In this document: positions 3,812-46,457 of the stretch, in pieces
Layout: the number at the start of each line of letters is the position of its first letter
How positions within the stretch are numbered: position 1 is the stretch's first letter
NCBI RefSeq assembly: GCF_030913635.1
Contig: NZ_CP133188.1
Location: 3,410,001 to 3,474,000 of the forward strand
From: Sedimentibacter sp. MB35-C1
GTDB lineage: Bacteria > Bacillota > Clostridia > Tissierellales > Sedimentibacteraceae
Reading direction: 5' to 3'
Length of the DNA stretch: 64,000 bases
Program-made: the position numbers and the translations under genes
Notes under the pieces: model-generated
Seen by the model: only the letters and a program-made list of their open reading frames with translations
What the model was told of the DNA's origin: nothing
Database searches by the model: none

Positions 3812-3824
3812 ATTGTTTATGATA

Positions 3825-4361: not shown

Positions 4362-4493
4362 AATACACCTCGTCTGATAATTTATTTATCCATAAGCCAA
4401 AGGCTGCGGATTTCTTTTGCCTGCAATTAATATAGCAGTTTTCTTAATTAAACCATTAGCATAACAATCTATATATACCCACAATTTAATACT

Positions 4494-29901: not shown

Positions 29902-29910
29902 GACCAATTG
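29902..29910. repeat. Left 9-bp target-site duplication of composite element
   Basis: GACCAATTG, directly outside the left ISLre2-like end. An identical 9-mer is directly outside the right end at 46449-46457. Confidence 0.75.
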
Positions 29911-30981
29911 GAAAGTGTCAAGTTACTTTCGGAAAATAAAAACAATAAATCCCCTTAGTAAAATTAAGCACCACGAATAGACTTAAGAAATTCACTCATT
30001 TGTGTTCTTTTGCCTATATTAATAATTTCTAAATTATCAAGTGTCTCATTTATTGAAACATTTAATTTCTTTTTCACTACACGCTTATCAAGTTCTTTGA
30101 TTTTTCTTTCTTTAATTTCTGATTGTTTCTTGAGTTTCATTAAATCATAAACCTTGCCACCGTTCTTCTTGTAAGCCCTTAATCGGGCCATTTGGTCAGC
30201 TCCAATTTCACTCCAACCCATAGGCCTAGAACTAAGTCTATTTGATAGGATATGGCTCACGTGTCCTTCTGCACTGCAGCCAACATAATCTAGGTTGTAT
30301 TGATTTCTTATTCCTTCCCAGTTATTCATAATATATCTGCGTGATTCAAGTACTGATTTTCTTTTTCTTCCGGTTTCTGTACAATCTAATATTACCTCAA
30401 ATAGATCATTTACCCATTCTTTCTTTCCCTTATTTACGTATCCCCACATTACAGGTGTTGTATAGGGTATGTGCGCTGTAGCTTGTTTTATATATTTTGA
30501 TAAATGAAATCTATCTAACACATAGATGCTTTTGTCTATCCAATTTAAGCCATCTTTTATCCAATTAGCGCCATCTCCTGATAAATACACCTTTTCTATT
30601 TTATCTGTATCATAATATTTGTATATGTAGTCAGCTACTTCTAACCAAAGCTGTTCATTATTGTTGTTATATAACCCTGTAAAATATCTTGGATTTATCA
30701 GAGCATTTCTATTTTTACTTTCGCTTCTTAAACCTTCATGTACATAAATCAATTTCATCTGTTTGTTAGTTCCATCTTGCATTGCTACATGATCTTCATC
30801 TGCTTCTACATACAGGATTTTCAATTCCGATTTCTTATCTAACTTCTTTTTATAAACCGTCTTTTCTACAGCACTATTTTCTATTTTGTCTAGCTTTCTT
30901 ATGTTGTTCAGCGTGATACTTAATCTTAACATAAAGGGCTATTCTTTTCTTGTTTTTTTCCTACAGTAATTTTACACTAAG
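29911..30981 (-). mobile_element. ISLre2-family insertion sequence, left copy, internally deleted
   Basis: Both ends are present: left end starting GAAAGTGTCAAGTTACTTTC and right end finishing TACAGTAATTTTACACTAAG, which are imperfect inverted repeats of one another. Compared with the right copy about 490 bp are missing, from just inside the right end to codon 155 of the transposase. Confidence 0.88.
29964..30932 (-). pseudogene. ISLre2-family (UPF0236-type) transposase, N-terminally deleted
   Basis: 322-codon frame whose last 314 residues match residues 156-469 of the intact transposase at 44941-46350 with scattered substitutions. The first eight residues (MLRLSITL) come from the non-coding IS end fused in frame by the 490-bp deletion. 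Catalytic-region blocks such as VYLSGDGANWIKDGLNWI and DRFHLSKYIKQATAHIP remain, but the N-terminal DNA-binding third is gone, so it should be inactive by itself. The ends could still be moved in trans by the intact copy. Confidence 0.9.
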
Positions 30982-31074
30982 AAAAACAGTGTTGATATGA
31001 AAAAGGATACAGAATGAATACAAGAATAGATGGAAAGACAGCAATTCTATTGGAGGAACAGCCTAATGTAAAAA

Positions 31075-31503
31075 GTGACTGATGAAGAACTAATCGTTGT
31101 TCAGGCATACAATGATGGAGGACGGGCTACAGCATATAATTTGCTGCGTAGTCAATATGGGATAAAGAATCCCTACTTCGTAATGAAAAGAATCGAGAAG
31201 AATCCAAAATTCGTGTACAACAATGAAAATGACCGCTATCTGCTGCATGACGAATCACAGACTGACGATGTTTTCATGAGCATGGAGAAACTCTGCTCCC
31301 CAATGGCTTCACAGCATTCTAATTTACCATAAAAAACGCCAATTGATAGGCGTCCTGCTGAAATGAAAAAACTTATCCATGACCTGCTGGGAGATCGCCT
31401 ATTGGAGCTTAGCAGATACATTACATTGGAATCATCATCAAGGTCAATGATAATTGACCAGACTTCATTAAAAAGAGATGGATATCAAATCAGTATGTAC
31501 TAG
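31075..31503 (+). pseudogene. IS accessory protein gene (possibly IS66-type) with in-frame stop
   Basis: Reading from GTG 31075 (MTDEELIVVQAYNDGGRATA, then YNLLRSQYGIKNPYFVMKRI) the frame meets TAA at 31330 after 85 codons, then continues in the SAME frame for 56 more codons (PAEMKKLIHDLLGDRLLELS to DGYQISMY) to TAG at 31501. The two halves read as one protein of about 142 residues, so a nonsense mutation has killed it. I associate this protein type from memory with IS66-like elements; family assignment is uncertain. No transposase follows. Confidence 0.55.
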
Positions 31504-31508
31504 CATGT

Positions 31509-31615
31509 GGGTCAATTCTAAGTGTGAACAACAGAAATCACAACTAAATCTGATCCACCTAGTTCAAATCTAAGATGGGTCAAATTTAAGTGAAAAAGCG
31601 GGTCAATTTTACTTG
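31509..31615. repeat. Three GGGTCAA-type repeats resembling IS21-family ends
   Basis: GGGTCAATTCTAAGTG (31509-31524), GGGTCAAATTTAAGTG (31577-31592) and GGGTCAATTTTACTTG (31600-31615). Multiple short terminal repeats of this type are typical of IS21-family ends; no istA/istB is present. Confidence 0.45.
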
Positions 31616-31904
31616 ACAATCAACAGTTTATCACGCTTGGCTTTACCGGTGATAAATAGAAAATTGGGCAATCAATTTTTGACCGCCCAATCACCGTATA
31701 AAGAACAGCAAGCGTTTAGGTCGCACCCCTGCGTTGCCTTTATTTATGCTGTATCTTTAGTATTTTCACTTATGAATTTTTTAATCCAAAAATCCATTTA
31801 CACGTAATTTGTTACACTCCCTAGGCTAAAGTGTTACAAAAATGCTTGACCACAACAACTTTTGTGCAAATATAGTTTTTTAGGCTCCATTGTAAATTCG
31901 AACT

Positions 31905-33719
31905 TTATTTATAGTAATTTGCTTGTGCTTCGTAAAACTTGGCATAATCACTATTCTTATACATTAGATCTTTGTGAAGTCCTGTCGCATGTACCTTATT
32001 GTTTTTTAAATAAACTATTTGATCTGCGTAAGAGGCACAAGTCAACCTATGTGAAATAAATATAATAATCTTGTTTGGGAATATTTTCTTTAAATTTCTC
32101 AAAAGTTCATCTTCTGCTATCGGATCCAGTGCTGCTGATGGCTCATCCATAATTAGTATATCGGTATCTTTATATAATGCTCTTGCTAATGCTAGTTTTT
32201 GATTTTCACCACCAGACAGTATTATTCCATCATCATAAAATATTTTCTCTAAATTTGATTTTAGTCCATTTGGAAGAGCTTTTACTTTTTTATATAATCC
32301 AACTCTTATAAGACAACTATTTATTTTATCATTAATGAACTTATCTTTTTCATCATATTCATCTAAAATAATGTTTTCGGCAATTGTAAAAGCATAATGA
32401 TTAAAATCTTGAACAACCATACTAAATTTCTTTCTATATTCTATACAATTAATTTCATTAATCGGTTTATCATTTAAATATATGATCCCTTCTGTTGGTT
32501 CATACAATCTACTTATTAAATTGATTAAAGTTGTTTTTCCCGAGCCATTTTCCCCTACTATAACATATAACTTTCCAGACTCAAAAGTACAATTAATATC
32601 TTCGAGGATTTTACAATTTGACCCTTCATACCCGAAATTAATATTTTCTAATCGAATTTTATTGAATGCTTCGAGTTTTGGTGAATCTTGATCAGAACTC
32701 TTTTTTTCCTTCTTAAAATCTAATTTCTCTATTTTACCTTCTAATTCCATAAACTCCTTAAATGACGCAATATATTTTCCATTTATATTTAATTGTGTAA
32801 AAAAACTTACAAATGTTAAAATCGAACCAGATAATTGATTTGTGGCTGCAAAGTATTGTGTAAAACCTCCAATAGAAATTTGACCTTTAAAAGTTAAAAA
32901 TGCTAAATATAGCAATATTCCATTACTTTTTATATTTTCGAGCAATATACTAATAATTTTAATCCTTAAACTCCATGAGTGTACTCTACTTAATCTTTCT
33001 TTTAGTTTATTAAATAATTTACCATGCTTTTCTATAATGAAATTAGAAAAATTGTATAATCGTATTTCTTTAGCACAATTCTTATCACCAATTAGCCTAA
33101 TGTAATAATTTAATAATCTTATTAAATACATCGTATCTTCTCTTTGTGAAATATACCAGTTCTCAGTCTTAAGATTAAGAAATACCGAGAGTAATGCAAA
33201 TACTATTATAATAAAAGATAACCATATATTTGCACCTGATATGATAATTGATGTAGATATAATTAAAACTATACTAGTTAAAGAATTAAAAAAACTATTT
33301 ACAGCATTAGTACCAATACCTTTGTTAATAATATCATTAGCTAAAGCAATTTTTTGATGTGTTTCAGGTAGGTCAAGTTGCGCCATATCTAAAGTCGCAA
33401 CTTTTTTATTAATTAACATTAAAAAATGTAAAGAATATAAATAATTATTTACATTTATGTATTTTTCTTGTAATACCGATATAACAAATGATGTAGTCAT
33501 TAAAATAATAAAATAAAACATTATATATTGAAATATCAATCTAAAATTACCCTTTATTAGCAATTCATCTATAATTAATTTAGGTATAACTATAGATGCT
33601 AATGGTAACAAACCATTTAATAATGAAATAATAGATTGTGCTATAATATATGATTTGCTGAACTCATAAATATATTTCATGTAAAAAAAGTTATTTTTCA
33701 GATTATTTAATATATTCAT
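31905..33719 (-). CDS. ABC exporter (fused membrane and ATPase domains), RiPP cluster
   Basis: 604-aa half-transporter of the type IV exporter fold: six-helix membrane domain over residues 1-320 and nucleotide-binding domain after about 350. Walker A VGENGSGKTTLI, Q-loop VVQDFNHYAF, signature LSGGENQKLALARAL, Walker B DILIMDEPSAALD and H-loop FISHRLTCA are all intact. There is no N-terminal C39 peptidase domain, so it does not itself remove a leader. Last gene of the cluster; most likely exports the mature peptide and may also give self-protection. 146 nt separate it from the binding-protein gene. Confidence 0.9.
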   Translation of the reverse strand: MNILNNLKNNFFYMKYIYEFSKSYIIAQSIISLLNGLLPLASIVIPKLIIDELLIKGNFRLIFQYIMFYFIILMTTSFVISVLQEKYINVNNYLYSLHFLMLINKKVATLDMAQLDLPETHQKIALANDIINKGIGTNAVNSFFNSLTSIVLIISTSIIISGANIWLSFIIIVFALLSVFLNLKTENWYISQREDTMYLIRLLNYYIRLIGDKNCAKEIRLYNFSNFIIEKHGKLFNKLKERLSRVHSWSLRIKIISILLENIKSNGILLYLAFLTFKGQISIGGFTQYFAATNQLSGSILTFVSFFTQLNINGKYIASFKEFMELEGKIEKLDFKKEKKSSDQDSPKLEAFNKIRLENINFGYEGSNCKILEDINCTFESGKLYVIVGENGSGKTTLINLISRLYEPTEGIIYLNDKPINEINCIEYRKKFSMVVQDFNHYAFTIAENIILDEYDEKDKFINDKINSCLIRVGLYKKVKALPNGLKSNLEKIFYDDGIILSGGENQKLALARALYKDTDILIMDEPSAALDPIAEDELLRNLKKIFPNKIIIFISHRLTCASYADQIVYLKNNKVHATGLHKDLMYKNSDYAKFYEAQANYYK

Positions 33720-33865
33720 AAAAAGATTTATTACTCCTCATTTAATTTAGCTTAAGTTTGATTTACATATTGATTTTAATTATAGGTACAGTTTTCCATT
33801 AATAAAAAATTTTATTTTCTGTCATATTCTTTTTACAATATACTTATTACTTTGTAGCATAATAA

Positions 33866-35476
33866 TCAGTTATTAATATTTAAAATACAATTTTTTAGAA
33901 TTAAATTACCCAGAGCATCGCACTTTAAATTACCTATTATTTTATCATTGAATAAATAACAGTTTCTATAATGATAAATTGGTATTGCAGGTAATTTTTC
34001 AATTAAAATCTTCTCTGCATTTATTAAATGTTGGTCTCTTAACTCATCTTGTGTTATGAAAGTACTTGCTATCTCATTTTCAAAGTATTCATTATACCAC
34101 CTGTTTTTATCTTTAGAACTATTACTAAAATTCAAAAAAAATGTCATAGGGTCATTAAAATCTGCTGTATATGACATCGTAATCAATTCAAACTTACCGG
34201 TGTTACCTATATTCATTAGCTCTTCAAACTCAACTACTTTGAGATTAACCTTTATATCCAAATTATTTTCAAGCATATTTTTTATGATATTCCCATAATT
34301 TTCATTACCTGTAGTTAGTTCAACTATCTGAATAGCATTAATGTTTCTAGTTCTAGTAATATTTAATAATTGCTTAGCTTTTTCTAAATCAACATTATCT
34401 AGATAATCTGCTTTTTTACGTTTCTCTTCAAAGGTAGTGTCATCACTTAGTTTCATATTTGGTGGAATTATACCATATGACTGTACACTATCCAAATAAA
34501 AATTGTTACAGTAATACTCACGATCTATAGCGTAAGAAAAGGCCTTCCGTAAATTCAAATCATTAAACGGAGTAATTTTTGTATTAAATACTATATATGA
34601 AGTTCCTATATATCTTGAGTATAATACTCCATCTCCTTCTATGATTCCATTTGGATAGATCTCCATTATATGAACCTCATTATTATTAAACATCTTATCT
34701 AAATTTCCACCATGTGTATTGATTAAACACTTAATAAATTGCAATTTAACATTTTCTTTATCATAATAGTAATTATTCTTAGATAATAGAACATGCGAAT
34801 CAGGCTCATAAGAATAAAGTTTAAATGGCCCATTTGAAATACATGTTTTTGGATTTGTTTCCCATCCTTCTATTACATTTTCAATTATATCTTTTCTTAC
34901 AGGTAAAAATTGCGGCATGGTTAAAATATCTAGAAAGTATGGTACAGGTTCATTAAGTTCTATCTCTAGAGTATATTCATCTATAGCTTTCACTCTAATG
35001 TCATCTTTACTTCCTATTCCGTTAATGTATTTATCTGCACCTTTGATATATACTTCAAACAATTTAGATACATTATCATCTTGTTCACATGCTCTTTTCA
35101 AACTATATTCAAAGTCGTATGCTGTTACATTCTTTCCATCAGACCATCTTGCATCCTTTCTTAATTTAAAAGTATAAATTGTATTCTCTATTCCTTCAGA
35201 ATTTGAAGAGACTGAAATCTTTTTTGCTACACCTAACTCATAACCGTTCTCACCTAGTACAGTTAATCCTTCAAATAATTGGCGATTGATATCTGCTACA
35301 ACGCTACTGTTAGATAAATGTGGATCCCAGGTTGTAAGCTTGCTTGATGTTAAGTTCCATAGTAAAGTATTATTTAATTCAGAACTAACTTCCTTAAAAT
35401 AATTATTATTACAACTTGTTATAAATAAACTCAATATTGAACATAAAAAAGGTAAAAATATCTTTATCTTTTTCAT
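33866..35476 (-). CDS. oligopeptide-binding lipoprotein (SBP family 5, OppA-like)
   Basis: 536 aa. Signal peptide with lipobox (FLPFLCSILSLFITSC, Cys22), then the family 5 binding-protein fold: TSSKLTTWDPHLSNSSVVAD, LFEGLTVLGENGYELGVAKK, TFKLRKDARWSDGKNVTAYD and DREYYCNNFYLDSVQSYG. It should bind a peptide outside the membrane. No cognate Opp permease or ATPase is present in the window, so it either uses the host Opp system or acts alone. In this cluster it could capture the RRNPP-type pheromone for import or sequester the RiPP as immunity; both are inference. Confidence 0.9.
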   Translation of the reverse strand: MKKIKIFLPFLCSILSLFITSCNNNYFKEVSSELNNTLLWNLTSSKLTTWDPHLSNSSVVADINRQLFEGLTVLGENGYELGVAKKISVSSNSEGIENTIYTFKLRKDARWSDGKNVTAYDFEYSLKRACEQDDNVSKLFEVYIKGADKYINGIGSKDDIRVKAIDEYTLEIELNEPVPYFLDILTMPQFLPVRKDIIENVIEGWETNPKTCISNGPFKLYSYEPDSHVLLSKNNYYYDKENVKLQFIKCLINTHGGNLDKMFNNNEVHIMEIYPNGIIEGDGVLYSRYIGTSYIVFNTKITPFNDLNLRKAFSYAIDREYYCNNFYLDSVQSYGIIPPNMKLSDDTTFEEKRKKADYLDNVDLEKAKQLLNITRTRNINAIQIVELTTGNENYGNIIKNMLENNLDIKVNLKVVEFEELMNIGNTGKFELITMSYTADFNDPMTFFLNFSNSSKDKNRWYNEYFENEIASTFITQDELRDQHLINAEKILIEKLPAIPIYHYRNCYLFNDKIIGNLKCDALGNLILKNCILNINN

Positions 35477-35514
35477 ATTAACTTTTTACTCCTCTTTCCA
35501 TATTTTTATTTTTT

Positions 35515-36234
35515 TCATTTACCAATTGCAAATAAATATATTGGATATTCATTTATTGGCAGCCTTAGAACACTTTTTAACTTTTCATCTTTAAAACCAC
35601 CAATTCCAACAATACCTATTTTATTTTTTGTAGCCATCAAATATAAATTCTGACCAATATGCCCAGCATCTATGAAAACATATCTATATCCCCTATCACC
35701 ATACTTAGAAATAGTTCTATTAAAATCCGCACAAAGACAAATTATTGCAGATGTATTATATATAAATGGTTGATTTAAGCAGTAATTAACAATGTCATCT
35801 ATAGTCATCTCAATATCATTAGTATATTCTAAATACTTTTTTTTTCGGTTGTAATGATATACTCCCTTTTCTAATTCTTTAATACTATTATTAATAATAT
35901 GAATTTCAATAGGGTATCTTGCTCCAGCTGACGGTACTGTATTATTTAAAGAAGAGTTATAATCAAAAGTACTATATGCCCAAATTAACAAATCTGATAA
36001 TTCCTTTAAATGTATTGAATTATTATCAAAATCTCTTTTACTTTTTCTTTTTAATAATACGTCTTTTAGATCATCTTTAGTATGATTAATGTCTTGATTT
36101 AAATAAATTATTTCTTTAGAATTATAATAATTTTCTTTTATTTCTTTTTCGTAGTTAGCACTTGGGTCATAATCCAGGTAAAAATCGGAAATAGATGTAT
36201 GTTTATGAAATGTTCGCCAAATATTATTGTTCAT
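35515..36234 (-). CDS. SagB-type dehydrogenase (azoline oxidase), RiPP cluster
   Basis: FMN-dependent nitroreductase-like protein, 239 aa, of the SagB type that oxidises thiazolines/oxazolines to thiazoles/oxazoles. Start at ATG 36234, placed 8 nt after AGGGGG; an upstream TTG would add six residues overlapping that site. Family blocks: LLKRKSKRDF near residue 64, the hallmark NTVPSAGARYPIEIHI near 110, then KGVYHYN, CADFNRTISKYGDRGYRY and DAGHIGQNLYLMATKN. 25 nt after the YcaO gene. Its presence argues that azoles and not only azolines are made. Confidence 0.9.
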   Translation of the reverse strand: MNNNIWRTFHKHTSISDFYLDYDPSANYEKEIKENYYNSKEIIYLNQDINHTKDDLKDVLLKRKSKRDFDNNSIHLKELSDLLIWAYSTFDYNSSLNNTVPSAGARYPIEIHIINNSIKELEKGVYHYNRKKKYLEYTNDIEMTIDDIVNYCLNQPFIYNTSAIICLCADFNRTISKYGDRGYRYVFIDAGHIGQNLYLMATKNKIGIVGIGGFKDEKLKSVLRLPINEYPIYLFAIGK

Positions 36235-36259
36235 TAATAAGCCCCCTAACAACTTAATA

Positions 36260-37570
36260 TTATAAAAATGGATGTGGAAAATAATTTATGCCACTTATAT
36301 GTTTGTAATTACTAAACAATTCATTTGCCTGGAATAATCTTCGACCACCAAGGTACATATAATTGCTGCTTATATCCAGACTTAACAAATCAGGTATAAT
36401 AGCTTGGACAATATTGAAACCAAGGTGTTTGACATCTCTTGTAGTAATATCACAATAATAAGATGTTATGCCATGCATATTTAATTTTTCAACACACTCA
36501 TCAATTAATTTTTTATTACTCTTATTATTATTTTCTTCGTATCTCAATTTCAAATCTTTATATTTAATTTTATCTCCTGCAATTAAGAAATTAGCCTCAT
36601 CCCATACATTAGAACTCATGAATATCTTAATTCGTTCGTGCAATTCGTTAATTGTATTATAATTTGTATCGCCATTGAACCTATTATAGTTTTTTAAATT
36701 TATCATAACCAAATTTGCTAAAGAGTCTAATACAGATATTATAGCTTTCCTATATGTAGATTTTGTTGATGAGTCAATTAATATATTTTTATAATTTGAG
36801 TTTCTATTGTATAACACTCCAATTATTGTTGGGATACCGTACTCCATTTCAGCTTTAATTAGCCATACTTCCATATTTGATTTAAAAAACTTTTCTAACA
36901 TATTACTAATTACATCATCATCAATTGTACTAATGTCTATGTGTGGAAATGATATCTTCTTTTTCCATGTCATTATAAATGAATCTCTTTCTATTACTTC
37001 ATAAATAGCAGTAAGAATTGCATCTTCAAGAGTTTCCCCACAAGCTTGACCAGTAGAAATATTATAGTTAATGCTAAACTTTTCAACATGATTTAAATAT
37101 ACTAATTCAGCTGGAACTAATACATCATCGTTGTTAAATAGATTCTTACACCAAATCCAATAAAGAGTTGTATTTTTATTAATCCTTTTAAATGGAAAAT
37201 CCTTTTGTTGTAGTTGTTCTTCTGAAAAAAATGAGAATTCTTTAATATGTGTACATTTATAACCTTGTTCAGTAAGCTGATTATAGCTCCCTTGAATTAA
37301 ATTATCATAATTTATGTTAAGCGCTGCATATCTCTCTAAGCATTCACCTAGGCATTTTGACAATGCTACAGTTTCATCAAAACTAGTACCACCACATACT
37401 ACAGTATAACGTTTATTCCTATCTTCATTATCCGCTAATAATTTTGGATTATTAATAACTCCTACGTAATGAATAAATTCAGGAATTACATCATTTACTT
37501 TTCTAGATACATTTTTTACTATACCCGTTTTGCTATTTACTATATAATCATATTTATCTATTATATCCAT
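36260..37570 (-). CDS. YcaO cyclodehydratase (SagD-like), RiPP cluster
   Basis: 436-aa YcaO-domain ATPase that activates backbone amides so Cys/Ser/Thr side chains close to azolines. The ATP-binding glutamates lie in SFDETVALSKCLGECLERYA (about residues 63-82) and STGQACGETLEDAILTAIYE followed by VIERDSF (about 166-190). The C-terminus ends PHPFL, matching the Pro-rich terminus that is needed in azoline-forming YcaO proteins. The partner E1-like protein is encoded separately just upstream, as in SagC/SagD. Substrate is expected to be the Cys-rich precursor at 40038-40295. Confidence 0.93.
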   Translation of the reverse strand: MDIIDKYDYIVNSKTGIVKNVSRKVNDVIPEFIHYVGVINNPKLLADNEDRNKRYTVVCGGTSFDETVALSKCLGECLERYAALNINYDNLIQGSYNQLTEQGYKCTHIKEFSFFSEEQLQQKDFPFKRINKNTTLYWIWCKNLFNNDDVLVPAELVYLNHVEKFSINYNISTGQACGETLEDAILTAIYEVIERDSFIMTWKKKISFPHIDISTIDDDVISNMLEKFFKSNMEVWLIKAEMEYGIPTIIGVLYNRNSNYKNILIDSSTKSTYRKAIISVLDSLANLVMINLKNYNRFNGDTNYNTINELHERIKIFMSSNVWDEANFLIAGDKIKYKDLKLRYEENNNKSNKKLIDECVEKLNMHGITSYYCDITTRDVKHLGFNIVQAIIPDLLSLDISSNYMYLGGRRLFQANELFSNYKHISGINYFPHPFL

Positions 37571-37634
37571 ATCGCTTTGTCTCCTTTATAGTTTAGATAA
37601 TAAATAACTCCCTAAATTATTATTGAAATATTAG

Positions 37635-38549
37635 CTAACTACATATTTGACATTGTGGATTATATAATATTCTATTATAATTTGTTTTATAATTTTTTAG
37701 ATCAATTTCAAGTTCTTTACCTATCAAATTGCAACTTTCATCAGCAAAGTAAAACTTAAAAATTTCTAAAGATATTAATTTGCTAGTTATTTTATAAAAG
37801 AATGTAGGATACAATATTCTTTGATTATTTATATTATAATACTCCTTCATATAATATTTTTCCAAATCAATAAATTCATAATTATTTATTTTTCTTAATT
37901 CCAAACAATTTAGGCAAGGTGTTTCATGTGGCATAATAATCGGACCTATTATTGCGTATAAATTTTTAAAATGACTAAAGAGGAAGGATATATTATTCTC
38001 CAAACATTTTTTATTAATAAACTTACATAAATTTATATTGAAAACACTATCATAACAGATTACTAAGTCAATCTTATTGTTTTCTATAATTCTTGATATA
38101 TCTTCTAAATCATTAGTGTTATATTTCAATTCAAAATTTATTATATTATTAAAACCGATTTCTCTTAAATCTTCATTTAAAAAATTAACTGTTAATGAAC
38201 TACCTAGAATTAATAACTTTATTTCATTCACATTGAAAATGTTATCATGATTAATCTTTGCAAATTGTTGCATAAATTCATACACATCCGAATTAATTGT
38301 ATCTACTTCAATTTGCTCAATTAAAACCTTTTTATCTACAAGTTTAGTAAATAATTCATTTATATCTTCGTAATTATACTTTTTTGTAAACTGTTCTTTT
38401 GTCGCTCCTAATTTAAAAAAATTAGTAATATCTACTATAATGTCTATATTTTCAGTTTTTATTTCAATAACATCTAACGGAGTTTTAATAATAATTCTAT
38501 TATCTTCAATAACTCGAACTGAAATAAATTTGTTAAGTATATAATTCAT
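37635..38549 (-). CDS. E1/ThiF-like TOMM leader-binding protein (SagC-like), RiPP cluster
   Basis: 304 aa. N-terminal part (residues 1-100) should be the peptide-recognition region that docks the precursor leader; then a Rossmann-like segment LLILGSSLTVNFLNEDLREI. A zinc clamp is visible as PCLNCLELRK and, at the extreme C-terminus, PQCQICS (two CxxC). No adenylation residues are obvious, which fits the SagC/Ocin-ThiF class whose job is to present substrate to YcaO. The gene starts 12 nt after the radical SAM gene and precedes YcaO. Confidence 0.83.
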   Translation of the reverse strand: MNYILNKFISVRVIEDNRIIIKTPLDVIEIKTENIDIIVDITNFFKLGATKEQFTKKYNYEDINELFTKLVDKKVLIEQIEVDTINSDVYEFMQQFAKINHDNIFNVNEIKLLILGSSLTVNFLNEDLREIGFNNIINFELKYNTNDLEDISRIIENNKIDLVICYDSVFNINLCKFINKKCLENNISFLFSHFKNLYAIIGPIIMPHETPCLNCLELRKINNYEFIDLEKYYMKEYYNINNQRILYPTFFYKITSKLISLEIFKFYFADESCNLIGKELEIDLKNYKTNYNRILYNPQCQICS

Positions 38550-38561
38550 CTTTGCCTCCTA

Positions 38562-39974
38562 TTAATTTATATTAAGTGGGATCCATTTATTTATTTTATT
38601 GTTAAAAACACTTTCACCATAAACTTTCTCAATTAACGTAGGTTCTTTTTCACATATCATTGCATATAATGCTATTGTAATTTCAAACCATGACCTTCTT
38701 AAGTTACATAACTCATGATTGGTTTTATTTATCGAATTACCTTCCAACAAGTTTTCATGCATACATCCACCCTTACATAAATTAAATGCCCAACAATCCT
38801 TACAATTCATTAATACATCATTTAATCTATTATAATAATAACTTTGCATTGTTGTAATTAAATCATTATCTACTCCTCTAACTACATTTCCTAATTTGTA
38901 CGTGCTGTCACCAACAAATCTATGGCAATGGTATATGTCTCCATTAGTGTCTATTGCAATTGATCTCAGGCCAGCTCCACAGTATGAATTATCTATATTG
39001 TTGTATATTTTTCCATAATTAAAAAAGTTTATATTTAGAAACTCTTTTCCTGCCAGTATATTATTTAAAACATCTTCAGCAATCATTTTACAATTACCAA
39101 TAAGTTTATTAATATCATCTTTATTTAATTTTTCATCCTCATCACTTGTTGAAATCGGAATAGAAATCAAATTTTTATAACCACTTGTTTTAAAAAAGTC
39201 ATAAGTATTCTTATAATCAACATCATTTTTTGTAATAGTGTTTCTAATAACAATATCAGACATATCCTGCTGTAAATATTCATCTATATTACTTTTGACT
39301 TTATCATAAGAACCTATTCCATTCTCAAATTTTCGGTTATAATCTTGTTTTTCTTTACTACCATCTAAACTTAACATTATTTTAGTTCCAAGATCATTTA
39401 ATAATGAATATATTTTATTATTCATCACAGTACCATTAGTAGTTATAGAAAATCTGCAATTACTTAACTTCTGTAATTTTACATAACTCTTTATATATTC
39501 AATAAGTTCTATATTTAAAAGAGGTTCACCACCAAACAATGAAATTGTAGGAACAGTCTTTTCATCTAAATTATTAAATAATAAATCAACTGATGATTTA
39601 ACAACATCTTTACTCATATTATTAGTTTTATATAGATTTTTTTCATAGCAATATTTACATCTTAAATTACAATTGTTTGTCAAAAATAAAGAAATCGTCG
39701 AAATCTGAAATTTTGAATTATGGTTATTTAATGAAGGTTTTCCATTAGAGATTATTCCTTTATCACATAAGAATTTTATAAATTTTTTCTTTCTTTCAAC
39801 AATGTCTATATCAAATCTTTCTTTATCATGTTCATCTAAAGTATTATTTAGTATTTTCTCAGAAAGCTCATCAATACTGAATATAAAATTAGTATTATAA
39901 TCAAAAGCATATTTTCTATTAAACATATTAAAAAAATGCAGATTTGTTTCAACTATAGTATTTATATAAATCAC
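38562..39974 (-). CDS. radical SAM/SPASM peptide maturase, RiPP cluster
   Basis: 470 aa. Residues 1-90 look like a precursor-binding (PqqD/RRE-like) region; the SAM-binding CNLRCKYC motif has Cys102, Cys106 and Cys109; SLFGGEPLLN is the GGE motif; the C-terminal SPASM domain has SYCGAGLRSIAIDTNGDIYH, CHRFVGD, then NCKDCWAFNLCKGGC. Such enzymes form thioether (sactionine/ranthionine) or other crosslinks on peptides. The GTG start lies inside the sequence GAAGAGGTGA, so the true start is uncertain (next ATG is codon 17). First gene after the precursor. Possibly related to the clostridial Cys-rich-peptide maturase group described by Haft and Basu; to be tested. Confidence 0.9.
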   Translation of the reverse strand: MIYINTIVETNLHFFNMFNRKYAFDYNTNFIFSIDELSEKILNNTLDEHDKERFDIDIVERKKKFIKFLCDKGIISNGKPSLNNHNSKFQISTISLFLTNNCNLRCKYCYEKNLYKTNNMSKDVVKSSVDLLFNNLDEKTVPTISLFGGEPLLNIELIEYIKSYVKLQKLSNCRFSITTNGTVMNNKIYSLLNDLGTKIMLSLDGSKEKQDYNRKFENGIGSYDKVKSNIDEYLQQDMSDIVIRNTITKNDVDYKNTYDFFKTSGYKNLISIPISTSDEDEKLNKDDINKLIGNCKMIAEDVLNNILAGKEFLNINFFNYGKIYNNIDNSYCGAGLRSIAIDTNGDIYHCHRFVGDSTYKLGNVVRGVDNDLITTMQSYYYNRLNDVLMNCKDCWAFNLCKGGCMHENLLEGNSINKTNHELCNLRRSWFEITIALYAMICEKEPTLIEKVYGESVFNNKINKWIPLNIN

Positions 39975-40001
39975 CTCTTCTTTAACTATTTCTTAATTTG
40001 T

Positions 40002-40033
40002 AATTAGCAGCTGTAATTTTACAGCTGCTAATT
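40002..40033 (-). promoter_or_regulatory. Perfect hairpin between precursor and maturase genes
   Basis: 15-nt arms 40002-40016 and 40019-40033 (core AGCAGCTGTAA) are perfect with only 2 nt between. No U-tract follows on the transcript, so it is more likely a stabiliser/processing element or leaky terminator keeping precursor mRNA in excess. Confidence 0.75.
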
Positions 40034-40037
40034 AGTC

Positions 40038-40295
40038 CTAATATGTATGCGCATTTGGTGTTATTCCAATTGAATTTGGACATACTGATGGCGGCCAGTC
40101 TTCTATACATCCATCACAACATGCTGGCGGCACATCACAACAACCAGGAGTACAAGCACCCGAACAACCTCCTCCACATGGATCCGGATCATGACTTAAT
40201 GGTCCAATCAAATTATTGATATTCTCACTTAGCGATTCCATTGTAAAGTTTATTAATTTATTAGAGTTATAATCTTTAACACTCATTACCTTCAC
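40038..40295 (-). CDS. Cys-rich RiPP precursor peptide
   Basis: 85 codons after a very strong site (AAAGGGGGTGAAGGTAATG). Residues 1-35 form a leader without Cys (LINFTMESLSENINNLIGPL). Residues 36-85 are the core: Cys at 40, 44, 48, 52, 53, 59, 60, 63 and 72, with four equal 4-residue steps at 40/44/48/52, then CC-x5-CC-x2-C-x8-C. Gly, Ala, Pro, Asp fill the gaps, with Pro-Pro at 56-57 and 68-69 and a Cys-free tail ending HTY. No homologue recognised by eye. Position directly upstream of radical SAM, E1-like, YcaO and SagB genes makes it their substrate. Cys could become thiazoles, thioether bridges, or a mixture. Confidence 0.88.
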   Translation of the reverse strand: MKVMSVKDYNSNKLINFTMESLSENINNLIGPLSHDPDPCGGGCSGACTPGCCDVPPACCDGCIEDWPPSVCPNSIGITPNAHTY

Positions 40296-40549: not shown

Positions 40550-40600
40550 ATTGTAGCATGCTTTTGACTTTTTGTCACTATATATTTTCATTTTAGTGAC
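40550..40600 (-). promoter_or_regulatory. Candidate promoter and operator of the RiPP operon
   Basis: On the minus strand: -35 GTGACA (40578-40573), 17-nt spacer, extended -10 TGCTACAAT with TACAAT at 40555-40550. A dyad GTCACTA (40574-40580)/TAGTGAC (40594-40600) with 13-nt centre overlaps the -35, where an RRNPP-type regulator could act. The box GTGACAAAAA recurs upstream of the pheromone gene. Confidence 0.55.
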
Positions 40601-40676: not shown

Positions 40677-40700
40677 AAAAAAACTGCCTATTTTAGGCAG
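40677..40700 (-). terminator. Terminator after the pheromone-like gene
   Basis: CTGCCTA (40684-40690)/TAGGCAG (40694-40700), 3-nt loop, with seven A on the plus strand just outside giving a U-tract. Confidence 0.88.
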
Positions 40701-40716
40701 CTCACTTATTAATATA

Positions 40717-40872
40717 TTAAATTTTAATGTTCATTGAATTGATTATTATACCTATTCCTGGTGGGTCACTAAATATTCCAATCTCTTTTGAATTCTTACC
40801 AATAATTATAGAACAAATCAATACAGCGCAGATCACAATTAAGCCTACTGTTTTTAGCTTTTTTTTGAACAT
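40717..40872 (-). CDS. putative secreted pheromone pro-peptide of an RRNPP quorum-sensing pair
   Basis: 51 codons. ATG 40872 is 9 nt after GGGGG; another ATG at 40879 lies in a different, short frame. The product has KKKLK at positions 3-7, a hydrophobic stretch TVGLIVICAVLICSIIIG (8-25) as Sec signal, and a C-terminal part with SDPPGIGIII near residues 35-44 that could hold the mature peptide. Size, architecture and position (98 nt downstream of and co-directional with an HTH-TPR regulator) are those of Phr/PapR/NprX-type signals. It has its own promoter and terminator. The mature sequence is not known. Confidence 0.72.
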   Translation of the reverse strand: MFKKKLKTVGLIVICAVLICSIIIGKNSKEIGIFSDPPGIGIIINSMNIKI

Positions 40873-40911: not shown

Positions 40912-40961
40912 ATTATAACATAAACACTTATTGTATTCAATAATTTTCTAGTTTTTGTCAC
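40912..40961 (-). promoter_or_regulatory. Candidate promoter of the pheromone-like gene with shared upstream box
   Basis: Minus strand: -35 TTGAAT (40940-40935), 17-nt spacer, extended -10 TGTTATAAT with TATAAT at 40917-40912. GTGACAAAAA at 40961-40952, 11 nt upstream of the -35, is the same 10-mer that overlaps the RiPP operon -35. Confidence 0.58.
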
Positions 40962-40970
40962 AATTATGCA

Positions 40971-42239
40971 TTATATTATGTGACCCGTCAAAATATTTTT
41001 GGCTTTTTTTATGTCGTTTTCATCTAAGTATATAAGGCACAACTTACTCGATATGTCAATTATTTCCTTATAATCCTTCCTTACTTTTGCAATATTTAAA
41101 ACTTTTAAATAAATATTTTCTAGTTTTTTTATATCTCCTGTTTTTTTATGAATATCTATTATTAAATAATATCCCTTTAGCTCATATTCGAAATCCTTAT
41201 GTTTTTTAGCTAAATCAATTCCAAGGTTTATTAAAATTAGTGCTTCGTCATTTTTATTTTGCATAATTAAAATATTAGCCTTATCAATTAACGACTTAGC
41301 TAAATTTTCAATATCTATTTCTGTTCTAATTTTTTGGGATACTTCTAAACATTTTAAAGCTTTTTCATATTCAAAGTATTCACAATATAATAAACCTATA
41401 TTATCATAAACATATGCTGCATCTGAACTTTTATCATTATTTAAGTATACTAACAAATTTTCATAAATATTTAAGGCTTTATCAAATTCTTTTAAATCCC
41501 TATAATTGTTAGCCTTAATTACGCTAGCATACACATAATTAGTATCCTCTATGTCTTTATCACATAAAATTAAAAATTCATTAATATATTTAATCGATGA
41601 TTTAAAATTATATAGCTTTCTATAACATAAAGATATGTTATAAATTGAATTTTTACGTGTCAATAAATCATCATTTAAAATTGCTGAAGAGTATGCCATA
41701 TTAAAGAATTCTAAAGCCTCTGCATAATACAATTCATTCATCTTACATAAACCTAAACGATTAAATATATAAGATTCATTCTTCTTATCAGTAATATTAA
41801 TATTGTTTAGTGCTTTTACATAGTAAATTGCTGCTTTAGAATATTCCTTATAATTAAAATAATAGTCTCCCTTTTTAATGCAAGCACATATGCCAACATC
41901 AATTAAATTAAACTTAACTGAAACATCAAAGGCGAAATCAATAGTTTCTAAATTCGGATTATCTTTTAACTTGTTTAAACAATATTGCCTAGCCTCTTCT
42001 TCTTGAGTCATTAATAAATTTGATTCATCAATATGTAAATTTATTTTTAACTCATTTGCTCTGTTATTAAATTTCTCGGCTAAATATCTAGCCGTCTCTA
42101 TACTTAATCCTCTTTTACCATTTTCAATCATACTAATAAAATTTCTTTTAACCTTCTTACCCTGCAAGTCATATTGCTTTAAGTTTAATAATTTTCTAAT
42201 CTTTTTTATTCTCTGCCCAGGAGTCAAAAATTCGTTCAT
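40971..42239 (-). CDS. HTH-TPR transcriptional regulator of the RRNPP (NprR/PlcR-like) type
   Basis: 422 aa from the ATG at 42239, 6 nt after AGAAGGTG (a GTG 9 nt upstream overlaps that site). N-terminal XRE HTH: GQRIKKIRKLLNLKQYDLQG, ISMIENGKRGLSIETARYLA (residues about 5-60). From about residue 105 on, a run of helical TPR repeats: KGDYYFNYKEYSKAAIYYVK, YIFNRLGLCKMNELYYAEAL, YVYDNIGLLYCEYFEYEKAL, LIDKANILIMQNKNDEALIL and others. This is the receptor architecture of intracellular-pheromone regulators; the adjacent pro-peptide gene strengthens the call. Likely activates or represses the RiPP operon and the pheromone gene according to imported peptide. Confidence 0.88.
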   Translation of the reverse strand: MNEFLTPGQRIKKIRKLLNLKQYDLQGKKVKRNFISMIENGKRGLSIETARYLAEKFNNRANELKINLHIDESNLLMTQEEEARQYCLNKLKDNPNLETIDFAFDVSVKFNLIDVGICACIKKGDYYFNYKEYSKAAIYYVKALNNINITDKKNESYIFNRLGLCKMNELYYAEALEFFNMAYSSAILNDDLLTRKNSIYNISLCYRKLYNFKSSIKYINEFLILCDKDIEDTNYVYASVIKANNYRDLKEFDKALNIYENLLVYLNNDKSSDAAYVYDNIGLLYCEYFEYEKALKCLEVSQKIRTEIDIENLAKSLIDKANILIMQNKNDEALILINLGIDLAKKHKDFEYELKGYYLIIDIHKKTGDIKKLENIYLKVLNIAKVRKDYKEIIDISSKLCLIYLDENDIKKAKNILTGHII

Positions 42240-42316
42240 AGTAAGCACCTTCTATCTTTGGCGATTTTTATTATTATATTATAACACATCTTAATGACTT
42301 TATATAAAACATGGAC

Positions 42317-42363: not shown

Positions 42364-42858
42364 TCATGCAGCATCATGAGCAGCCTGTGGAGTCATATAA
42401 TTTATAGCACCATGAATCCTTTTACGGTTGTACCAGGATTCAATATATTCAAATATTACCTTGCGGGCAACATTAAAATCAAAATATTTGTGATGGTTTA
42501 CTTCTTCCTTTTTAAGTATGGAATGAAAAGATTCAATACATGCATTATCGTAGGGGTTTCCTTTTCTACTAAAGGAATGAATAATTTCTTTTGAGGATAA
42601 ATAGTCCTCAAATAAATGACTTGTGTACTGCGTACCTAAGTCACTGTGCAGAATAATGCCTTTTGTATTTTTAATATTTAAGCAAGCATATTTAACTGCT
42701 TTTACAGCTAATTCGGCTGTCATAGAAGTATCGTATGCGTAACCAATAATTTTCTTACTATGAAAATCCATAACAGAAGCTAAATAGGTCGAACCATTTT
42801 TTATGGTATATATATAGATTATATCAGTGCACCATTTCTGGTTTATGGCGGTAGCTTT
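42364..42858 (-). pseudogene. IS3-family transposase OrfB, C-terminal fragment 1
   Basis: 164 codons of an integrase-type (DDE) catalytic domain, open from codon KATAINQKWCTDIIYIYTIK at 42858 to the stop at 42364. First Asp in KWCTD, second in ILHSDLGTQYTS, Glu in NACIESFHSILKKEEV. The N-terminal half of OrfB and all of OrfA are missing. It ends head-to-head against a second IS3-type fragment at the A/T-rich junction 42856-42865. Confidence 0.85.
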
Positions 42859-42862
42859 TTAA

Positions 42863-43303
42863 AAAGATGGAACGATGCGCTATAATTGCACCATAATTGA
42901 TTTATATGACTGCAGTGTTGTTGCAACACTCAATGACAGCCATATTACAGCAGGTCTGGCAATTAATACTCTTAAAATTGCTTTAAAAAGATATAAGCCC
43001 GGCAAAGGAATCATTCTTCACAGCGATCAGGGAACACAATTTACTTCAAAGGATTTTAATGAATTCTGCATAAAATATCATATTCAGCAAAGCATGAGCC
43101 GTGCAGATTGTCCATATGACAATGCACCTATGGAACGGTTTTATAATACGCTTAAAAATGAACATTTTAATTTGTATTCCTTCCGCTCTCAGGCAGAACT
43201 TGATAAAGGAATATATGATTTCATTTATGTTAAATATAACCACCTAAGGCCTCATTCATATAACAATGGGCTTACCCCTTATGCTGCTCGTTGTGCCGCT
43301 TAA
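42863..43303 (+). pseudogene. IS3-family transposase OrfB, C-terminal fragment 2
   Basis: C-terminal part of a different IS3 OrfB: from KDGTMRYNCTIIDLYDCSVV through ILHSDQGTQFTSKDFNEF and NAPMERFYNTLKNEHFN to the stop at 43303. The first catalytic Asp is lost with the N-terminal part. The IS end presumably lies at about 43322-43350, whose sequence recurs in degenerate form at 31831-31859. Confidence 0.85.
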
Positions 43304-43617: not shown

Positions 43618-44502
43618 TTAAAAGTTTAACTTTTCTTCTAAAAAAACTTTCCATCCATTTCTAAAGTCATCTACTTTAATATTTAATACACCATCAATAT
43701 CGCCTTGATGTACTAATAGTTCTATAAGTTTTTCCCTTCCATATGTTTTAATAATGTATTCAACCATGCTATACCCGTATGTGTATCTGCCTTCACTCAA
43801 ATTTAGTATATATAAGTCTGGCAATCCTTTTTCAATCATTTCCTTGTAATACGCTTTACTATAATCCCTATCCTGAGCTAAGTATTTGGCTGTTCCTTCC
43901 CATAACCAATCAATTTGGGCATTGCCGCCTGTTAAAGCCATTGTTGCAATATGTGTAAACTCATGTACCAAAACCCTTTTTAAGTCAATTGTATAACCAG
44001 ATTTATCTTTTATAGTAAAATAAATAGTATCACTTTTTATTGAAACCCCCATAAAGTTTATGTTCATATCATCAGGGTCGAATTTTAATTCATCAATTAC
44101 TGCTAATCTAATCTTTTCATATTCATCATACATATGTATTTTTACTTTAGGCATTTTTGTTTCATCTACATTTAAAAATTCCAAAACTCTATAATACTCT
44201 TCTTCCAATATTTTAATAGAATTAGATGCATATAACTTATTCGATTGATTGTTTGAGTTGTAGTACACCTCAAAATGATCGCTTACCAGATATTCATTAA
44301 ATATATTGCCTGCTCTGTCTTCAAAATAACCTTTTTTATCAATTTCTTCTTGCTTATTTATGTAGTCATATCCATATACATTATCATAACTATTAATACC
44401 TTCATCTTGATTTACTTCATTAAAATTACTACTTTTAGAATTGCATCCTGAAATAAAAATACATATTAAAAAACAATAAAACATTTTTTTAATTATACTC
44501 AC
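43618..44502 (-). CDS. lipoprotein with peptidase MA-like (HExxH) metallohydrolase domain
   Basis: 294 aa. Signal peptide and lipobox (MFYCFLICIFISGC, Cys20), a charged linker, then a gluzincin-like domain with HEFTHIA as the HExxH zinc motif (about residue 180) and WLWEGTAKYLA supplying the third-ligand Glu helix. Anchored outside the membrane. It lies inside the composite element but is separated from the RiPP operon by IS3 fragments. Extracellular proteolysis of pheromone or of the RiPP leader is conceivable but unproven; it could equally be unrelated cargo. Confidence 0.85.
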   Translation of the reverse strand: MSIIKKMFYCFLICIFISGCNSKSSNFNEVNQDEGINSYDNVYGYDYINKQEEIDKKGYFEDRAGNIFNEYLVSDHFEVYYNSNNQSNKLYASNSIKILEEEYYRVLEFLNVDETKMPKVKIHMYDEYEKIRLAVIDELKFDPDDMNINFMGVSIKSDTIYFTIKDKSGYTIDLKRVLVHEFTHIATMALTGGNAQIDWLWEGTAKYLAQDRDYSKAYYKEMIEKGLPDLYILNLSEGRYTYGYSMVEYIIKTYGREKLIELLVHQGDIDGVLNIKVDDFRNGWKVFLEEKLNF

Positions 44503-44887: not shown

Positions 44888-46448
44888 GAAAGTGTCAAGT
44901 TACTTTCGGAAAATAAAAACAATAAATCCCCTTAGTAAAATTAAGCACCACGAATAGACTTAAGAAATTCACTCATTTGTGTTCTTTTGCCTATATTAAT
45001 AATTTCTAAATTATCAAGTGTCTCATTTATTGAAACATTTAATTTCTTTTTCACTACACGCTTATCAAGTTCTTTGATTTTTCTTTCTTTAAACTCCGAT
45101 TGTTTCTTGAGTTTTATTAAGTCATAAACCTTGCCACCATTCTTCTTGTAAACCCGTAATCGGGCCATTTGATCAGCTCCAACTTCACTCCAACCCATAG
45201 GTCTAGAACTAAGCCTATCTGATAGAATATGACTCACATGCCCTTCTGCACTGCAGCCAACATAATCTAGGTTGTATTGATTTCTTATTCCTTCCCAGTT
45301 ATTCATAATATATCTGCGTGATTCAAGTACTGAATTTCTTTTCGTTACGTTTTCTGTACAATCTAATATTTCTTCAAATAAATCACTTACCCATTCTTTC
45401 TTTCCTTTATTTACGTATCCCCACATTACAGGTGTTGTATAGGGTATATGTGCTGTAGCTTGTTTTATATATTTTGATAAATGGAATCTATCTAACACAT
45501 AGATACTTTTGTCTATCCAATTTAAGCCCTCTTTTATCCAATTAGCGCCATCTCCTGATAAATACACCCTTTCTATTTTATCTGTATCATAATATTTGTA
45601 TATGTAGTCAGCTACTTCTAACCAAAGCTGTTCATTATTATTGTTATATAATCCTGTAAAATATCTTGGATTTATTAGAGCATTTCTATTTTTACCTTCG
45701 TTTTTTAACCCTTCATGTACATAAATCAATTTCATCTGTTTGTTAGTTCCATCTTGCATTGCTACATGATCTTCATCCGCTTCTACATACAGAAGTTTCG
45801 CTTCCGATTTCTTATCTGCCTTCTTTTTATAAACCGTCTTTTCTACAGCACTATTTTCTATTTCATCTAGTTTTCTTATGTTGTTCATAACGGTTTGATT
45901 GCTAAACTCTTGATCTGGAACGCTATTCCTTCCACTTTTACTGTATGAAACATCTATTGCTCTTTCAATAAGCTGGGATTGAAGCATCATATCCATTCTT
46001 TCATGTACTTCTATTCCTAAGAAATCATCTGAAAGATATTTGTATTCTCCTGTTTTTTTATTCTTGTAATAGGTCCTCTTATATTTTACATCTCCAAATA
46101 TTGTGCTATATGTTTTTTCCATGTTCCTTTTTTCAACATACCACTCTCTTTTTTGCTTCCCCGTTTGTCGTATGCTTTCTTCACATGTATCAAACAAAAC
46201 TTTTATTAATTTTACTCCTACATCATTTAGTGTGCGCTTTGTATTTTCAATGTATTCTGGTATCTTATCAGTTCCGGTTAATACATTTTCTAAATTTTTT
46301 ATTGTTTCTTCAGTGATTTTTTTTGTAATATCGTGTATAATGGTTTCCATAGAATAGTCCTTTCTTCTGTTAGATTTTGCGTGATACTTAATCTTAACAT
46401 AAGGGCTATTCTTTTCTTGTTTTTTTCCTACAGTAATTTTACACTAAG
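44888..46448 (-). mobile_element. ISLre2-family insertion sequence, right copy, apparently intact
   Basis: 1561 bp. Left end GAAAGTGTCAAGTTACTTTC and right end finishing TTTTACACTAAG; as inverted repeats the ends agree at most positions over about 22 bp (AGTGTCAAGTTAC against AGTGTAAAATTAC, then GGAAAA on both). Carries one full-length transposase gene. Only its outer flank (46449-46457) is shared with the other copy. Confidence 0.9.
44941..46350 (-). CDS. ISLre2-family transposase (UPF0236 type), full length
   Basis: 469 aa, uninterrupted. N-terminal third contains KTYSTIFGDVKYKRTYYKNK typical of this transposase group; catalytic region has LLYVEADEDHVAMQ, VYLSGDGANWIKEGLNWIDK and VLDRFHLSKYIKQATAHIPY; the C-terminal part ends NIGKRTQMSEFLKSIRGA. 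Except for the N-terminus, it is nearly identical to the deleted copy at 29964-30932. Likely source of activity for mobilising the whole 16.5-kb unit. Confidence 0.93.
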   Translation of the reverse strand: METIIHDITKKITEETIKNLENVLTGTDKIPEYIENTKRTLNDVGVKLIKVLFDTCEESIRQTGKQKREWYVEKRNMEKTYSTIFGDVKYKRTYYKNKKTGEYKYLSDDFLGIEVHERMDMMLQSQLIERAIDVSYSKSGRNSVPDQEFSNQTVMNNIRKLDEIENSAVEKTVYKKKADKKSEAKLLYVEADEDHVAMQDGTNKQMKLIYVHEGLKNEGKNRNALINPRYFTGLYNNNNEQLWLEVADYIYKYYDTDKIERVYLSGDGANWIKEGLNWIDKSIYVLDRFHLSKYIKQATAHIPYTTPVMWGYVNKGKKEWVSDLFEEILDCTENVTKRNSVLESRRYIMNNWEGIRNQYNLDYVGCSAEGHVSHILSDRLSSRPMGWSEVGADQMARLRVYKKNGGKVYDLIKLKKQSEFKERKIKELDKRVVKKKLNVSINETLDNLEIINIGKRTQMSEFLKSIRGA

Positions 46449-46457
46449 GACCAATTG
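46449..46457. repeat. Right 9-bp target-site duplication of composite element
   Basis: GACCAATTG, identical to 29902-29910. The following GAAAGTGTCA (46458-46467) equals the first ten bases of the IS end. Confidence 0.75.

Follow-up and report, generated by a model that had tools for sequence, protein, structure and literature searches.

A seven-gene cluster for a predicted modified Cys-rich peptide

We analyzed a 64,000-nucleotide stretch of the genome of Sedimentibacter sp. MB35-C1 (G000:C1:3410001-3474000, here called the window; the source genome is a single contig of 3.62 Mb) that contains a predicted cluster for a ribosomally synthesized and post-translationally modified peptide (RiPP). 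Seven co-directional genes on the minus strand, from 40286 down to 31905, encode in order a precursor peptide, a radical S-adenosylmethionine (SAM)/SPASM enzyme, an E1-like protein, a YcaO protein, a SagB-type dehydrogenase, an OppA-like peptide-binding lipoprotein, and an ATP-binding cassette (ABC) transporter. A first-pass annotation had described this run as one RiPP cluster at 31905..40295, and every gene that it named was found there on the minus strand. The cluster is real and well delimited. Beyond these genes, we found an RRNPP-like signaling module, a palindrome common to two upstream regions, and a composite transposon that carries the whole cluster.

The precursor gene (40038..40286, minus strand) encodes 82 aa, of which the first 36 contain no Cys and are predicted to form the leader. 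The remainder contains nine Cys, at residues 37, 41, 45, 49, 50, 56, 57, 60, and 69. The ATG at 40286, which gives the 82-aa product, is more probably the start than the GTG at 40295, and a ribosome-binding site, AAAGGGGGTGA, was recognized by eye. Five of the Cys (41, 45, 49, 56, and 60) are preceded by Gly or Ala, the context that azole formation usually prefers. Open reading frames (ORFs) of 40-110 aa with at least nine Cys appeared in none of 200 dinucleotide shuffles of the island, but when the whole window was shuffled they appeared in 6 of 60 cases, and 3 of the 211 ORFs of this size in the real window reach nine Cys. The number of Cys therefore does not decide the matter by itself, and the case for the precursor rests on its position, its ribosome-binding site, and its neighbors.

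The first-pass annotation had proposed a comparison with NCBIfam models. YcaO and SagB scored over the cut-offs of their families, while the E1-like protein fell slightly under its cut-off and the radical SAM enzyme exceeded that of none of the models listed. The YcaO protein (36260..37570, minus strand) reached 248.6 bits with the SagD-type cyclodehydratase model TIGR03604 (cut-off 219.25) and was also over the cut-off of the Pfam YcaO model. It matched MusD, TruD, and LynD, and the MusD and TruD alignments span the conserved E...ERD region. The SagB-type dehydrogenase (35515..36252, minus strand; TTG start, with an in-frame ATG six codons on) reached 119.9 bits with TIGR03605 (cut-off 78.4), was over the Pfam nitroreductase cut-off, and matched McbC (E 1.3e-7); it is predicted to act as an azoline oxidase. 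The E1/MccB-like protein (37635..38549, minus strand), a putative leader-binding partner, scored 35.2 bits with TIGR03882 (cut-off 36.9), 39.4 bits with TIGR03603 (cut-off 187.65), and 23.0 with Pfam ThiF (cut-off 28.1). It matched MccB (6om4) over residues 99-303 (E 4.8e-7), and its CxxC pairs may form a Zn site.

The radical SAM/SPASM enzyme, P0006 (38562..39974, minus strand; start codon uncertain), contains the motif CNLRCKYC, and its SPASM Cys were recognized by eye. Both Pfam domains were over their cut-offs (radical SAM PF04055, 74.6 against 29.5; SPASM PF13186, 21.8 against 21.5). Residues 12-432 align with CteB (5wgg; domain E 4.2e-44), whose N-terminal part is a leader-binding domain. 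Among the 25 of 79 matched NCBIfam models that were listed, the best was PapB (NF047865), with 252.5 bits against a cut-off of 340. The SCIFF model TIGR03974 gave 192.9 bits against 425. The first-pass annotation had assigned thioether or C-C links to this enzyme as a SPASM protein, an assignment that the models did not bear out, as P0006 lies under the cut-offs of ScfB, PapB, and CcpM alike. The same genome contains a SCIFF pair of its own elsewhere (L021), with a SCIFF-like peptide recognized by eye and an ScfB that reaches 633.9 bits with TIGR03974. We rejected P0006 as a PapB, since this ScfB outscores it on the PapB model (286.9 vs 252.5 bits), and PapB as its best match therefore carries little meaning. 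Thioether formation appears to be the likeliest chemistry of P0006.

The last two genes of the run are predicted to act in peptide binding and export. The lipoprotein gene (33866..35476, minus strand) reached 219.1 bits with SBP_bac_5 (cut-off 32.4), and a lipobox, ITSC, was recognized by eye. Its matches in the Protein Data Bank (PDB) include OppA (8are, E 6.7e-61) and PrgZ (4faj, E 2.9e-37). PrgZ is a pheromone binder, but general peptide binders score higher. The ABC transporter (31905..33719, minus strand; 604 aa) reached 103.3 bits with ABC_tran (cut-off 25).

The cluster is cargo of a composite transposon

We found that a 16.5-kb composite transposon carries the RiPP cluster as cargo. 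The 9-bp sequence GACCAATTG occurs in the window, searched on both strands, only at 29902 and 46449, directly outside two transposase elements of the same orientation; these two copies (29902..29910 and 46449..46457) form the target-site duplication. The left bounding insertion sequence (IS; 29911..30981, minus strand) encodes a UPF0236/PF06782 transposase and is internally deleted. It matches positions 1-1024 and 1497-1585 of the 1585-bp query, the inner stretch being gone, and its ORF (29964-30932) encodes 322 aa compared with 469 aa in the right copy (IS 44888..46448, minus strand; ORF 44941-46350). A third copy, 98% identical over query positions 22-1585, lies at 2519124. We take the bounding IS to be ISLre2-like, and the duplication made by ISLre2 is 9 bp. 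The identical stretch at the duplication actually extends over 19 bp, as the beginning of the IS and the old flank have the same bases; the duplication was delimited to 9 bp because the two element copies begin to agree at that point.

A sister species (G405, contig C29) has the corresponding empty site. In it, the flanking Crp and GntR genes (30365-31054 and 31248-31925), which are 95% and 99% identical to those of the window, lie about 190 bp apart, compared with 16.7 kb in the window. The alignment between the two genomes breaks at 29920/46454, with 94% and 93% identity outside, and the sister species has one divergent copy of the target site. Two related bounding IS copies, a target duplication, and an empty site, the features that define a composite transposon, are thus all present. 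The GC content is 25.6% in the RiPP genes, 27.7% in the island, and 34.2% and 37.4% in the flanks.

The transposon has further cargo, namely a regulator pair, two integrase-core pieces, and a lipoprotein gene. The integrase-core (rve) pieces (42364-42771 and 42875-43303) are in opposite directions, just upstream of the regulator. The lipoprotein (43618..44502, minus strand) is metallopeptidase-like, with a HEFTH motif and 27.2 bits with Peptidase_MA_2, below the cut-off of 32.4. Outside the cell, it could possibly cleave either the propeptide or the exported peptide.

A putative signal module lies upstream of the precursor

The regulator gene (40971..42248, minus strand; in-frame ATG at 42239) encodes an RRNPP-like protein of 425 aa with helix-turn-helix (HTH_19, 33.4 bits) and tetratricopeptide repeat (TPR; TPR_12, 48.5 bits, E 1e-12) domains, both over their cut-offs. 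Its best PDB relatives are TPR proteins (kinesin-light-chain-like, E 5e-5), and a match to the Rap-type structure 6t3h is weak (E 0.0043). An ORF for a 51-aa propeptide (40717..40872, minus strand) lies 98 bp after the regulator gene. The propeptide has a basic N-terminus, a hydrophobic core (15-residue hydropathy peak of 3.24, from residue 10), and a short tail, with no match in Pfam, and is a candidate signal peptide. Published criteria for RRNPP systems describe a receptor of 250-500 aa with TPRs and an adjacent propeptide, at -60 to 400 bp, that is predicted by SignalP to be secreted (PMC10075063, in the part available). In length, TPR content, and adjacency, the pair in the window agrees with this description.

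The regions before the propeptide ORF and the precursor were found to have the palindrome GTCAC-N17/18-GTGACAAAAA in common. The copy upstream of the precursor (GTCAC-N17-GTGAC, 40574..40600) overlaps with its right arm the -35-like GTGACA of a promoter-like site, and the copy upstream of the propeptide ORF (GTCAC-N18-GTGAC, 40957..40984) extends into the 3' end of the regulator gene. The window contains two such palindromes against 0.05 expected, and none of 100 shuffles had two. A terminator-like hairpin follows the propeptide ORF (40681..40703, minus strand; the region has four sites of this kind where 1.9 are expected) and may separate the signal and precursor transcripts.

Distribution of the cluster and its enzymes

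We searched for SagD-type YcaO genes. At E 1e-20 or better, they were found in 12 of 249 genomes of the order and in 5 of 391 genomes sampled from the class, the source genome being included in both counts. A YcaO match at 1e-10 was absent from all 24 other genomes of the genus that were examined. We compared 15 other SagD-YcaO loci (11 from the order and 4 from the class, several cut by contig ends). A relative of P0006 (tblastn, E 0.01) was present in one of them, L034 of genome G109, and ORFs with a radical SAM motif in five: L019 (two), L034 (three), L036 (one, at a contig end), and L055 and L056 (three each). A SPASM-like CX2CX5CX3C pattern was found among these five only in one L034 ORF. 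The presence of radical SAM genes in 5 of 15 loci makes the pairing in the window less surprising.

Locus L034 (9601-17092) has a SPASM-like gene, two more radical SAM genes, SagB, E1-like, and YcaO genes behind a peptide with PGSCCCCGGSTC, and is a second azole and radical SAM design in the same class. It also contains two membrane-protease-like genes, recognized by eye. A streptolysin-like product was considered for the precursor of the window and rejected, as by eye its core has no Cys/Ser/Thr run like that of the G109 peptide. At L019 (G432, 2423-4609, same order), a fused E1-YcaO of 728 aa that ends in PHPFP lies between two radical SAM-motif ORFs. L036 (G364, 1-3025) is a 3-kb contig with YcaO pieces that contain ambiguous bases, a SagB 38% identical to that of the window, an M50-like gene (recognized by eye), and a radical SAM gene of which 68 codons from the start are present; the contig does not include the remainder of the cluster. 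L055 (G860) and L056 (G861), from one genus, have the same layout, in which three consecutive radical SAM-motif ORFs (stop-free frames of 552-594 aa) immediately precede a YcaO gene that is a weak SagD-type match and a pair of ABC transporter genes. Thus, SagD-type YcaO genes repeatedly have radical SAM genes next to them, but of types other than that in the window, and none of the other loci examined had the exact set.

Wider searches gave no homologue of the whole cluster. A search of genome contigs with P0006 returned six loci, with radical SAM relatives 24-33% identical and no azole-gene match by tblastn. P0005 was matched in 6 of 398 genomes of the phylum sample, including the source genome; the other five matches were at 7e-11 to 3.6e-4, and neither a P0006 relative nor a radical SAM motif was found at these five loci. 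Viral contigs, searched with P0005, P0004, and P0006, contained no homologue of the whole cluster. None was found in plasmids either (61 YcaO and 34 E1 records), where the two neighborhoods opened (L018 and L027) had no radical SAM gene by annotation or motif.

P0006 itself has many relatives, with matches at E 1e-35 or better in 208 of 248 genomes of the order. Of those examined, L075 is a SCIFF maturase by model, and eleven other loci group in a tree with two ScfB rows. The best match after P0006 itself (G416, 36% identity, E 3.9e-68; L073, 6303-10255) is flanked by two similar small peptides ending in ICDPCGVAPH and VCDPCMRGGM, and a gene for a 603-aa protein with a radical SAM motif lies downstream; the order-wide search gave no SagD YcaO match in this genome. 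A relative in genome G995 passes the PapB model (389.1 bits) and is preceded by a 52-aa peptide with several CX3D, recognized by eye. The tree (23 rows, of which L074 and L059 are the same gene) placed P0006 with the G416 enzyme and four enzymes from Clostridia metagenome-assembled genomes at 94/93 support, which is below the bar of the program and comes with a long-branch warning. This is a hint that P0006 belongs to an uncharacterised neighbor group. At L003, L004, L005, and L008, from Clostridia metagenome-assembled genomes, the radical SAM/SPASM-like enzymes have 360-376 aa and no N-terminal extension, and the gene after each encodes a small protein (131-236 aa) that contains hydrophobic stretches. 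A leader motif common to other precursors, seen by eye, was rejected because shuffling reached its score too often (per 1000 shuffles, 454 and 179 times for two G416 peptides, 568 for the G995 peptide, and 146 for the SCIFF peptide).

Weighing the hybrid chemistry

We consider an azole/radical SAM hybrid to be the best reading of the cluster, because both enzyme sets belong to a single gene run with a single precursor, the alignment of P0006 with CteB extends into the N-terminal region of the latter, and the E1-like protein resembles the leader-binding type. It is likely, judging from these features, that the precursor receives both azole and radical SAM modifications. Of the mixed azole and cross-linked nine-Cys peptide proposed by the first-pass annotation, the mixture is thus a likely reading, but the type of cross-link was not supported.

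Several observations weigh against a hybrid product under the control of the signal module. P0006 exceeded the cut-off of no named maturase family among the 25 of 79 NCBIfam matches listed. The core of the precursor has no CX3D/E spacing of the kind in PapA; the Cys-to-Asp/Glu spacings that occur are X0, X1, X2, X4, X5, and X6 only. The YcaO ends in PHPFL and so has no final proline of PxPxP, the C-terminal motif of YcaO proteins, while its relatives end in PHPFP (L019 and L036) or PHPLP (L034). The operon encodes no leader peptidase and, because the domain searches listed no C39 peptidase match in the ABC transporter, it leaves leader removal unexplained. The searches gave no close relative of the cluster as a whole, so that conservation supports neither the precursor nor the enzyme pairing. 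Secretion of the propeptide was judged by hydropathy, not by SignalP. The palindrome pattern was chosen after both sites had been seen, and genome-wide its arms occur in three places compared with five for the reversed control; for these reasons, the evidence from the palindromes is their placement and not their count. Promoter-like sites numbered 114 compared with 94.4 in shuffles (standard deviation 10.1), about two standard deviations above.

Some of these points would fit a linear azol(in)e-containing peptide with azoles only, in which the radical SAM enzyme acts elsewhere, performs a different step (epimerisation, for example), or has no activity. YcaO and SagB score over their cut-offs and the radical SAM enzyme does not among the matches listed, the core has no CX3D/E pattern, and, of the 15 other SagD loci (several cut by contig ends), 14 have no tblastn relative of P0006 and 10 no radical SAM-motif ORF. 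However, the radical SAM gene lies directly between the precursor and the E1 gene, its product retains the cluster motifs and aligns with CteB through the N-terminal region, and its closest relative (G416) sits between two small peptides in which CDPC is followed by the last five or six residues. We regard an azole-only product as rather unlikely. A product of radical SAM chemistry only, with a YcaO that is degraded or makes another backbone change, is more doubtful still. The PHPFL terminus and the E1 score slightly under the model cut-off are compatible with it, but the YcaO passes the SagD cut-off, so that we take PHPFL as a deviation within the family, and retains the E...ERD region, and azoline oxidation is favored by the presence of a SagB that scores over its cut-off. 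It is equally improbable that the peptide binds or scavenges metal instead of acting as an antimicrobial, with a Cys/azole core that the lipoprotein recaptures, since the nine core Cys and the weak NikA and CntA model matches of the lipoprotein, far below cut-off, stand against best PDB relatives that bind oligopeptides and dipeptides and a cluster that encodes no permease.

Comparison with known systems

Azoles and radical SAM chemistry occur on one peptide in thiopeptides. The same applies to nostatin A, which resembles the product predicted here in this respect; according to the available part of the source (PMC11583998), its radical SAM chemistry comes from an epimerase and a predicted methyltransferase, whereas the window encodes a SPASM enzyme of the putative cross-linking type. 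The Itf cluster of Bacteroides thetaiotaomicron (YcaO ItfB, radical SAM ItfD), in which the YcaO makes a C-terminal amidine, and BGC8 of P. gulae, for which an amidine and thioethers are predicted, combine one precursor, a YcaO, a radical SAM (SPASM) enzyme, and an ABC exporter in one cluster, as the window does (PMC10352776 and PMC11002830, available in part). Unlike these amidine systems and their C39-type peptidase transporters, the window has a SagD-type YcaO, E1 and SagB proteins, nine Cys, and no C39 peptidase. The SagD-type YcaO with E1 and SagB points to azoles. TfuA-YcaO clusters have also been annotated as ranthipeptide-producing (PMC8120280, in the part available). The pairing of YcaO and radical SAM enzymes is therefore an already published idea. 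The first-pass annotation had recognized no characterized product with this gene set, and our searches found none, although the concept is represented by Itf, BGC8, and nostatin A.

The ranthipeptides (SCIFF/CteB and PapB freyrasin) resemble the window in a radical SAM/SPASM enzyme of CteB-like extent and a Cys-rich precursor. P0006 differs in being below the PapB and SCIFF cut-offs, and the cluster in having no CX3D/E and in its added azole genes. For PapB, the natural peptide has CX3D, and spacings of n = 0-6 were accepted in vitro (PMC9413430, in the part available). The plasmid-borne thiazole/oxazole-modified microcin (TOMM) cluster of L. plantarum (L018) has E1, YcaO, and SagB in the same order as the window, with identities of 24%, 29%, and 34%, respectively, and ABC transporter genes; it differs by an insulinase-family gene and by the lack of a radical SAM gene in its annotation or by motif. 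Tryglysin and its kin are reportedly Rgg/SHP-controlled radical SAM RiPPs (RaS-RiPPs) of streptococci. The window has in common with them the likely quorum-sensing control of a radical SAM RiPP, and differs in the branch of the regulator, the host, the azole genes, and the location of the module on a composite transposon.

The terms "radical SAM" and "SPASM" are absent from the main text of a TOMM survey (PMC4603692), as are "YcaO" and "azole" from a review of Rgg and RaS-RiPPs (PMC13361665). Full-text literature searches, which did not extend to most subscription papers, gave no publication that describes a SagB/E1/SagD-YcaO set together with a SPASM cross-linking enzyme for one precursor.

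A proposed mechanism and its meaning

Taken together, we think it probable that the window contains a quorum-regulated hybrid RiPP cluster on a composite transposon, for which we infer the chemistry, the order of its steps, the pairing of signal and regulator, the role of the lipoprotein, and any biological activity. Once the cells are dense enough, the 51-aa propeptide, after secretion and trimming, would re-enter the cell, possibly caught for uptake by the OppA-like lipoprotein, and bind the TPR regulator. The regulator would then act at the two GTCAC-N17/18-GTGAC sites and activate both the RiPP operon and the gene for the signal. The E1-like protein and the radical SAM enzyme, the latter through its N-terminal domain, would bind the leader of the precursor. 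YcaO would cyclodehydrate some of the Cys to thiazolines, for which C41, C45, C49, C56, and C60 are best placed, being preceded by Gly or Ala, and SagB would oxidize these to thiazoles. The radical SAM/SPASM enzyme would cross-link the remaining Cys, most likely as thioethers. The ABC transporter would export the product, and a peptidase from outside the operon would cut off the leader.

Of the new facts, the strongest is that the cluster is packaged in a mobile and signal-linked form. More tentatively, the element could be a transposable "social" cassette that combines its own pheromone, receptor, and operators with a possible pheromone-binding lipoprotein, a thiazole- and radical-cross-linked peptide of a new class, and an exporter. 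If so, a naive host would gain a density-controlled peptide product in one jump. If both enzyme sets share one core, the Cys would be divided between competing azole and thioether chemistries, and the seven-gene cluster would make leader sharing and the ordering of steps directly testable. The signal module and palindromes of the cluster offer a handle for switching it on, and its transposon ends, considered with the empty site of the sister species, illustrate the movement of such a peptide cluster as one piece.

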